Source of the DNA: Dehalococcoidia bacterium
Lineage (GTDB): Bacteria; Chloroflexota; Dehalococcoidia; GIF9; UBA5629
DNA length: 43,342 nt
NCBI GenBank assembly: GCA_016930155.1
Contig: JAFGHL010000022.1
Span: 1 to 43,342, forward strand
Reading direction: 5' to 3'
Shown piece by piece: positions 28,441 to 31,489 of the stretch. Within the stretch, counting starts at the first letter, position 1, and every line of letters begins with the position of its first letter. The position numbers were made by a program, and so were the translations under genes. A model generated the notes under the pieces. That model was not told the DNA's origin, ran no database searches, and saw only the letters and a program-made list of their open reading frames with translations.

Positions 28441-29405
28441 AAGGCAGAGTCATGCTGGAAGTCAATAACCTTAAGAAGTATTACAGGGTAACGGGTGGGC
28501 TGATGTCACGTTCGATCGGAGAGATCCGTGCGGTGGATGGTGTTTCTTTGGCTGTCGGCATGGGCGAGGTGCTGGGTCTGGTGGGTGAGTCCGGATGCGG
28601 GAAATCGACTCTGGGCAAGACCATTTTGAGATTGGAAGAGCCGACCGCCGGTGAGATCAAATTCAACGACGTAGATGTGGTCAGGCTTAACAGGCGACAT
28701 CTCAGGGAACTGAGGGGCAAAATGCAAATAGTTTTTCAGGATCCGGATTCATCTCTGGACCCCAGGATGACTGTAGGTGATTCAATAGCGGAGGCGCTTG
28801 TAGTACATGGTATCAGTGGTTCTGCGGAGCTGGATGATCGGGTTGCTCGCTTACTGGAGAAAGTTGGGTTGGAGTCGGATTTTGGGGAGAGGTATCCCCA
28901 CGAATTCAGCGGCGGACAGAAGCAGCGTATAGGTATAGCCAGGGCTCTGGCAATGGATCCACAGCTGATTATAGCCGATGAGCCTGTCAGTGCGCTGGAC
29001 GTCTCGGTGCAGGCACAGATTTTAAATCTGATGATGGATATCAGAGAGAGGGACGGACTGGCTTATATATTCGTGAGTCACGATCTTTCGGTGGTCAGAT
29101 ACTTATCCGATCGCGTGGCAGTTATGTATCTGGGCAAAATTGTGGAGATGGCGGATAAAACCGAATTTTTCCGAAATCCGCTGCATCCTTATACGGAAGC
29201 TTTATTATCGGCAATAGCCAGCCTGCGTCCGGCAGGCAGGGACAGGATATTACTGACGGGCGATCTCCCATCTCCGCTCAATCCTCCCCCCGGCTGCCGC
29301 TTTCATACCAGGTGCCATCGTGTGATGCCGGTTTGTTCCCAGGTTGAGCCGGAACTGGCTCAAATTGCGCCCGGTCATATGGTATCATGCCATCTTTACG
29401 TCTGA
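28437..29405 (+). CDS. dppF: Peptide ABC transporter ATP-binding protein (DppF type)
   Basis: [53 protein letters not shown] start overlaps the dppD stop. Confidence 0.96.
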
Positions 29406-30761
29406 CCCCAGCTTTTTGAACATGTAGGGGCCCTCCAGTTGATAGCCGAAACCGCGTCGGAAATAGTCACGGGCTCCCACGCCGCTGATCACGGCGATCC
29501 TGTCTGCTGAAAATTCTTCGTGAGCAATACGCTCCGCTTCTTTAATCAGCGCTGACCCCAGACCCTTGTGCTGAGCAGCCAGGTCGTCCTGCTCGCCTAT
29601 AGGCACCTCTGATCCAAAAATGTGGACCTCCCGTATCAGGGCGGGGTGAATATCACCGGGGCCGATACGAAGTCGTAACAGGCCGAAGAGCGTGCCGGCA
29701 TCGTCCTCAAAGGATAGAAATATTTCCCTGCCCCCTGAAGCATCATAATCGTATCTGTGTAAAGAGGGCGCGCCTATTTTCCAGCCTTCCCGCCGGCGGT
29801 GGCCGTATTCACGGCAGCGCGTGCACCGGCATTTCGACCCTCTAATTTTCATAACATTCTTTACACCGGAGCGTAAGGAAAGGTCGCGGCAACCTGCCAC
29901 GATAAATTTGGTAGGGATATCGCGCATTACGCGCGGGATACGGACATATCCCGGCACGGCATCTTTTATATCAGCTATCAGATCGGTCATTTCGCCCATG
30001 GAATAAGGAGTGTAGCTGCCATGTCTGTACCATTGCTCGAGCTCGGTGCCTGTCACAACCAGGGTGGGGTAGATCTTGATGCCGTCGGGTTTGTATACGG
30101 CATCGTTGAAAAGCAGCTTTGCCTGCGCCAGGTCATGCGAGGGCGTCGATCCGGGCAGGCCGGGCATCCAGTGGTAGTAGACCTTCAGGCCGTATCTTTT
30201 CAACAGGGCTGTGGCATCTATAACATCTTTCGAGCAGTGCCCGCGGCGGACCAGCCGGTATATGTCGTCATCCAGTGTTTGCACACCCAATTCCACACGG
30301 GTGGTGCCGTACTCGAGCATGCGTTTCACATCATTTTCACTGCACCAGTCCGGCCTGGTTTCAATACATAGCCCGATGCACCTGTATCTGGCAGTCTCAT
30401 TCATGCGCTGTGCATCCTTCAGATTTTGCGAAGCGTGTCCATTAAGCGCATCGTAGCAGGACTGTATGAAATCGTACTGGTATTCGGGTGGGGAAGCCAG
30501 AAACGTTCCGCCCATTATGATCAGCTCTACTTTATCTACTGGATGCCCCATTTTAGAAAATATGTTGAGGCGGAACTCCACCTGCCTGGTCGGATCGTAT
30601 TCGCAGGAGAGGGCTCGCAGTACTGCCGGGGATTCCGGCGTATAGCTTTTGGGCGAGCCGTCGAATGTGGGACAAAATACGCAGGAACCCGGACATGGCA
30701 TAGGCCTGGCCATTACCGCGACGGGTGTGACTCCTGAGATGGTCCTTGAACTTTTTCGCAT
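29385..30761 (-). CDS. elp3: Elp3-family tRNA uridine-34 modification enzyme (radical SAM plus GNAT acetyltransferase)
   Basis: MARPMPCPGSCVFCPTF, IIMGGTFLASPPEYQ, CIGLCIETRPDWC, TTRVELGVQTLDDDIYRLVRRGH, C-terminal GLGSALIKEAERIAHEEFSADRIAVISGVGARDYFRRGFGYQLEGPYM; the ATG at 30761 (MRKSSRTISGV) is favoured over the ORF-track start. Confidence 0.94.
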   Translation of the reverse strand: MRKSSRTISGVTPVAVMARPMPCPGSCVFCPTFDGSPKSYTPESPAVLRALSCEYDPTRQVEFRLNIFSKMGHPVDKVELIIMGGTFLASPPEYQYDFIQSCYDALNGHASQNLKDAQRMNETARYRCIGLCIETRPDWCSENDVKRMLEYGTTRVELGVQTLDDDIYRLVRRGHCSKDVIDATALLKRYGLKVYYHWMPGLPGSTPSHDLAQAKLLFNDAVYKPDGIKIYPTLVVTGTELEQWYRHGSYTPYSMGEMTDLIADIKDAVPGYVRIPRVMRDIPTKFIVAGCRDLSLRSGVKNVMKIRGSKCRCTRCREYGHRRREGWKIGAPSLHRYDYDASGGREIFLSFEDDAGTLFGLLRLRIGPGDIHPALIREVHIFGSEVPIGEQDDLAAQHKGLGSALIKEAERIAHEEFSADRIAVISGVGARDYFRRGFGYQLEGPYMFKKLGSDVKMA

Positions 30762-30847
30762 GGTGGGATGCAAATATACAGTTATGATATATTTAGGTTG
30801 CGACTCAAGTTTAGCAAATAAGGCAAAAGGCCACCAGGGGAAGTCAC

Positions 30848-31489
30848 ATTTCAAATACCTATGACAATATAGCAGAGAGCTGGTATCGCCTCCGGCACAG
30901 GACCCGCTTTGAGGCCGAACTACTATCCCTGGCGGATCGTTGGGTAAAAGGCAGGCTGTTAAATATCGGCTGTGCCCACGGCCCGGATTTCCTCCCATTC
31001 AGAGATAAATTTGAAATGTGGGGCCTGGATTCATCGGGACGGATGATCAAGTTGGCAGTTAAATATGCAGATAAACACAACATCAGCCCCAATTTATTGA
31101 TGGCGGATGCGGTTCAATTGCCCTTTGGCGACGATGTTTTCGATTATGCATTAGCTGTAGCAGCCTATCATCATATCCCGGGAAGGCAGAGCCGGGATAT
31201 GGCTTTCCGGGAGTTAAAGCGTGTGCTTAAACCAGGAGGGGAGGCCTTCATCACTGTGTGGAACCGCTGGCAGAGAATCTTTCTGGGTAAAGGCAAGGAG
31301 GTACGAGTGCCATGGAAGACCGGGGATCAAGTAATACACAGGCACTACTATTTGTTTACCTATTTTGAAATCGGGCGGGCTCTCAGCGGTGTTGGATTCA
31401 AAGTGCTGGCAATGCGGCCGGAGAGCTATTACAAATTACCCTGGAAATGCTTTTCACGCAATATCTGCGTGCTGGTAAAGAAGGATTAA
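30848..31489 (+). CDS. Class I SAM-dependent methyltransferase, probable ATT start
   Basis: The frame continues upstream of the ORF-track ATG with homologous-looking sequence YDNIAESWYRLRHRTRFEAELLSLADRWVKGRLLNIGCAHGPDF (motif I), then FDYALAVAAYHHIPG, ELKRVLKPGGEAFITVWN; SD-like AGGGGAA precedes ATT at 30848. Confidence 0.85.
   Translation: MSNTYDNIAESWYRLRHRTRFEAELLSLADRWVKGRLLNIGCAHGPDFLPFRDKFEMWGLDSSGRMIKLAVKYADKHNISPNLLMADAVQLPFGDDVFDYALAVAAYHHIPGRQSRDMAFRELKRVLKPGGEAFITVWNRWQRIFLGKGKEVRVPWKTGDQVIHRHYYLFTYFEIGRALSGVGFKVLAMRPESYYKLPWKCFSRNICVLVKKD

Follow-up and report, generated by a model that had tools for sequence, protein, structure and literature searches.

A Dehalococcoidia bacterium very probably possesses an intact Trm9-like methyltransferase gene, divergent to elp3, whose ancestral ATG has been lost and which is now translated from the ATT at 30848. 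The window, i.e. the whole stretch of DNA that was analysed, comprises 43,342 nucleotides of contig JAFGHL010000022.1. To our knowledge, few bacterial genes have been found to start with ATT, ATA or ATC, and such genes escape standard gene callers. A first-pass annotation had read the methyltransferase gene as ATT-initiated, and the present analysis supports this reading. The features concerned are:

29385..30761, - strand: divergent neighbour elp3, encoding the radical SAM/GNAT enzyme for carboxymethylation of tRNA U34
30785..30793, + strand: TGATATATT, probably an extended -10 of the methyltransferase gene with a putative transcription start near 30800; close relatives conserve it as TGnTATATT
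30808..30816, - strand: probable extended -10 of elp3 (TGn-TAAACT); the conserved box reads AGTTTAGCA, with TGCTAAACT as its reverse complement
30812..30814, + strand: in-frame TAG closing the methyltransferase frame upstream, inside the conserved promoter-like box
30827..30829, + strand: lost ancestral start, AAG; GAA in sister species G006, ATG in four genus members, TTG/ACG in other genera of the family
30836..30842, + strand: SD-like AGGGGAA, pairing with the 16S tail at -6.5 kcal/mol; its counterpart in G006 is AAGGAC, at -4.9 kcal/mol
30848..30850, + strand: proposed start codon ATT, also present in G006
30848..31489, + strand: CDS of 213 codons plus stop for a Trm9-like SAM-dependent methyltransferase, ATT start proposed
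31016..31018, + strand: first canonical ATG in frame; not the start, as it would remove 56 conserved residues including motif I

Results

Reading frame and candidate start codons

Downstream of the closing TAG the methyltransferase frame is open from 30815 to 31489, and no ATG, GTG or TTG codon occurs in it before the ATG at 31016. This confirms the observation of the first-pass annotation that the frame extends upstream of 31016 and has no canonical start there; the N-terminal peptide with SAM motif I which it had reported (LLNIGCAHGPDF) is indeed encoded by this segment. The codons preceding the conserved YD are CAA ATA AGG CAA AAG GCC ACC AGG GGA AGT CAC ATT TCA AAT ACC. ATA and ATT, proposed earlier as the sole options for initiation, are both in frame, but AGG (30821, 30833) and AAG (30827), each one base from ATG, had been omitted. 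AGG and AAG are among the poorest initiator codons.

The SD-like AGGGGAA described before lies at 30836-30842, with the claimed spacing of 5 nt to ATT 30848 (7 nt if counted from the last G of AGGGG). Calculated SD pairing amounts to -6.5 kcal/mol for ATT 30848, compared with -2.9 for ATG 31016, -2.3 for AAG 30827 and -1.2 for ATA 30818. The SD is thus suitably spaced, but of modest strength. Since 15% of the ATT triplets across the window reach an SD score as good as that of ATT 30848, the SD by itself lends weak support to this codon. What lifts ATT 30848 beyond chance is that the start loss is common to the sister species and that the N-terminus is kept in all full-length orthologues.

Identity of the enzyme

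The product exceeds the curated cut-offs of methyltransferase families, matching PF08241 with 58.7 bits (curated cut-off 21.2), and its AlphaFold (AF2) model, built from 43 orthologues and of high confidence (pLDDT 91.9), has a Rossmann-like fold. Whether the PDB is searched by sequence, by profile or by fold, Trm9 5cm2 (5cm2_Z) ranks first. The enzyme thus resembles Trm9/ALKBH8 both in its best PDB match and in its linkage to elp3, whereas identity to 5cm2 in the structural match is just 27%. The divergent upstream elp3 is found at 144 of 155 methyltransferase loci; at one locus, L110, elp3 departs from the usual divergent position and is located on the same strand, some 3 kb downstream. The elp3 product of the window scores 558 bits with TIGR01211 (cut-off 350), and its top match among solved structures is Dehalococcoides mccartyi Elp3 (5l7j). 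Trm9-type enzymes act on the Elp3 product; in eukaryotes, Trm9 is established as the enzyme that takes the product of Elongator to the finished mcm5U. Given this role, the likely step is methylation of the cm5U34 made by Elp3, and by analogy the methyltransferase probably methyl-esterifies cm5U34 in tRNA.

Conservation and structure of the N-terminal segment

Orthologues are found in most relatives. The N-terminal block and SAM motif I are present in every full-length orthologue, the exceptions being a few fragments at contig edges, and among 43 orthologues many N-terminal positions vary little or not at all. In the orthologue alignment, which had been suggested as a check, starts do not fall at 31016; they lie 3 to about 14 codons upstream of the YD/FD motif, and the part upstream of 31016 is conserved. 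Compared with G006, codons 30848-31015 show a dN of 0.048 and a dS of 0.67, and the rest of the gene, with a dN of 0.074 and a dS of 0.63, is equally constrained; dN/dS across the whole gene is about 0.1. Judged by these substitution patterns, the segment 30848-31015 is under purifying selection and the gene is real, its N-terminus included. The 11 codons 5' of ATT, with a dN of 0.14 on 27 sites, are not clearly unconstrained. In the AF2 model ATG 31016 corresponds to residue 57, within strand beta2, so that a start at this position would delete not only motif I, as had been claimed, but also two helices and beta1.

Loss and relocation of the ancestral start

The sister species G006 (Dehalococcoidia isolate STA_11) is represented by a separate assembly. 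DNA divergence from the window species is 15%, and the methyltransferase is 86% identical at the amino acid level. G006 has the same frame without ATG, GTG or TTG; both the TAG and the ATT are retained, along with AAGGA as an SD-like sequence. Seven codons upstream of ATT, the window has AAG and G006 has GAA, while ATG stands at the codon aligned to AAG 30827 in four further genus members (L007, L008, L009, L012). This pattern indicates that the ancestral start was gone before the window species and G006 separated and that the codon then drifted. The ancestral ATG position lies 19-20 nt downstream of the start of the conserved box AGTTTAGCA. A start loss of the same type, but with a canonical codon as its outcome, is seen in three further orthologues (L010, L011, L014), which have exchanged the ATG for ACG and relocated the start to GTG or TTG three codons before YD; an in-frame TGA separates the old and new starts in L011 and L014. 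The SD of the relocated starts, those of the window, G006, L010, L011 and L014, derives from former coding codons.

We propose that the ancestral ATG, about 19 nt past the promoter-like box, was lost in the common ancestor of the window species and G006, and that the translation start would have moved seven codons downstream to ATT 30848, with the SD (AGGGGA in the window, AAGGA in G006) presumably arising from the first codons of the former CDS. Initiator fMet-tRNA would initiate on AUU, a process expected to be inefficient and IF3-sensitive, and a low enzyme level would be the outcome. Initiation at ATT 30848 itself we infer from the frame, the lost start and the SD; this particular ATT occurs in two sequences only, and its conservation could merely reflect an Ile codon.

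Another near-cognate codon might initiate instead, either ATA 30818 (ATC in G006) or AAG 30827. Both are within the open frame, and AAG occupies the exact ancestral start position. Against them stand the weaker SD pairing at both sites, the GAA of G006 at 30827, which is unable to pair as a start, and the location of ATA 30818 at the border of the conserved promoter-like box; we therefore consider such a start improbable. The first-pass annotation had named raw reads with an indel joining a normal ATG as a result that would overturn its reading. Fragmented assemblies (131 contigs for the window genome, and a coverage of 2.3 in the G006 record) would leave room for a sequencing or assembly error, by which a true ATG, GTG or TTG, or an indel joining one, were absent from the record. 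However, two species that differ by 15% in DNA and were assembled separately have the same frame, both lack canonical starts and both carry the ATT, and a shared error would not be expected to leave AAG in one and GAA in the other at the ancestral position. An error is hence very unlikely.

Least probable of all is a decaying gene or a short protein from ATG 31016, the start that a default gene caller picks. It is already contradicted by the low dN/dS of the whole gene, by a segment before 31016 that is constrained like the rest, by the largely invariant N-terminal residues and by the removal of motif I that a start inside beta2 would entail. Translation of the full-length enzyme from ATT 30848 is the preferred reading.

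Start loss across Dehalococcoidia

Across the class, 11 of 155 distinct orthologues are without a canonical start, defined as no canonical codon within 25 codons of the conserved [FY][DN]. Candidate starts are ATT in the window and L006, ATC in L173 (with GGGGAGG upstream), ATA in L057, L065, L089, L097 and L102, ATT or GTA in L077, and ACG in L062 and L106; the L057 locus is truncated at a contig edge. The ACG of L062 (locus 2992-2994) lies five codons before FD, at the position of the GTG start in most related orthologues that share its leader. Upstream of the methyltransferase in L065, L077, L097, L102, L106 and L057 a leader, in several of them with repeat-like CTCTCCTTTGAAGGAGAGGGGG...GGGGGTGAGGTAG, is the source of a very strong SD, and the near-cognate codon follows about 10 nt past the G run.

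At least nine start-loss changes were estimated on the tree, at least six of them forced by well-supported branches; many inner branches are weak. Several orthologues thus seem to have lost canonical starts independently, which suggests that the Trm9-like methyltransferase tolerates or favours weak translation starts. In a matched test, 8 of 145 methyltransferase frames were flagged. Among frames from 13 neighbouring families, a control confined to neighbouring genes, the count was 1 of 254 (Fisher p = 0.0017), and among elp3 frames it was 0 of 130 (p = 0.008), phylogeny being ignored in both comparisons. The median SD energy was -11.6 kcal/mol for the proposed non-canonical starts versus -4.2 kcal/mol for canonical ones (p = 4e-6); the SD had partly guided the choice of candidate codons, and both the window and G006 are found at the weak end.

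Promoter-like elements between methyltransferase and elp3

Read on the elp3 strand, the conserved box is TGnTAAACT with a variable n, as expected of an extended -10, and some members of the order carry the near-palindrome TGCTAAAGTTTAGCA. The box is present at 99 of 119 loci with elp3 within 250 bp versus 9 of 36 otherwise. In the window (30785-30816), TGATATATT on the + strand and TGCTAAACT on the - strand face each other, an arrangement conserved in relatives. Judging from these motifs, they are probably overlapping divergent promoters of methyltransferase and elp3; facing -10-like elements and a near-palindrome resemble bidirectional promoters (PMC12825309). The overlap of the methyltransferase start region with the probable elp3 promoter may constrain or destabilise the start codon.

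A role of the box as a translation element or as a leaderless methyltransferase promoter was considered and rejected. Because the box is retained at loci with a relocated start (window, L010, L011, L014), tracks a nearby elp3 and reads as an extended -10 in reverse complement, it is not a start element of the methyltransferase. A genome-wide search for the exact box form, with a pattern ending in ATT that mismatches the window's own AAATAA, gave one site, the same as the reversed-pattern control; at control level, the box is not a general signal. Coupling to an upstream ORF (TTG 30799 to TAA) was dropped as well, since that frame is not conserved in G006.

Discussion

Documented genes with rare AUU, AUC, AUA or GTC starts include infC, pcnB, sigR, cvfC1, ccpN and citZ (PMC5472188, PMC13009471). 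The methyltransferase adds to these genes, and the unusual part is the recurrence within one enzyme family. It shares a rare start of this type with infC, which encodes IF3 and starts with AUU, AUC or AUA, and for E. coli infC autoregulation via IF3 is documented, according to PMC5472188. In contrast, the methyltransferase is not an initiation factor, so that direct autoregulation is not expected, and its start loss is confined to some lineages; a regulatory role of the ATT start is possible. The infC of the window genome itself (L116, G000:C125) has no ATG, GTG or TTG at its conserved N-terminus, where a candidate ATA (IFKELNINHRIRAKEIR) follows AGGGAGG.

The AUU start of E. coli pcnB was shown experimentally (Binns and Masters 2002, cited in PMC13009471). 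Like the methyltransferase, pcnB encodes an RNA-acting enzyme, and PMC13009471 describes its expression as limited by the AUU start. It is nevertheless a different enzyme, and its start comes from experiment, while ours was deduced from sequence. In Staphylococcus aureus, cvfC1 (AUU), ccpN and citZ (AUA) were identified by ribosome profiling and reporters, with roughly 10% of the output of AUG (PMC13009471). They combine ATT or ATA with strong extended SDs, as do several orthologues here, unlike the window with its merely modest SD. Streptomyces sigR, with an IF3-repressed GTC start and a strong SD, is likewise a non-canonical start missed by annotation; it differs in being conserved across Streptomyces and in its proven regulatory role (PMC5472188).

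The gene described here encodes a probable bacterial partner of Elp3, Trm9-like, which annotation would truncate in the window species. Its family provides, within a single enzyme, a comparative series in which a lost ATG has given way to GTG, TTG, ATT, ATC, ATA or ACG, and thereby opens the cost and the possible use of weak starts to study. That weak AUU, AUA, AUC and ACG starts evolve repeatedly because low, IF3-dependent translation of the methyltransferase is selected is a tentative and rather doubtful idea. If true, selected weak starts would tie the modification of wobble uridine to the fidelity of initiation, in the way that infC does for IF3.
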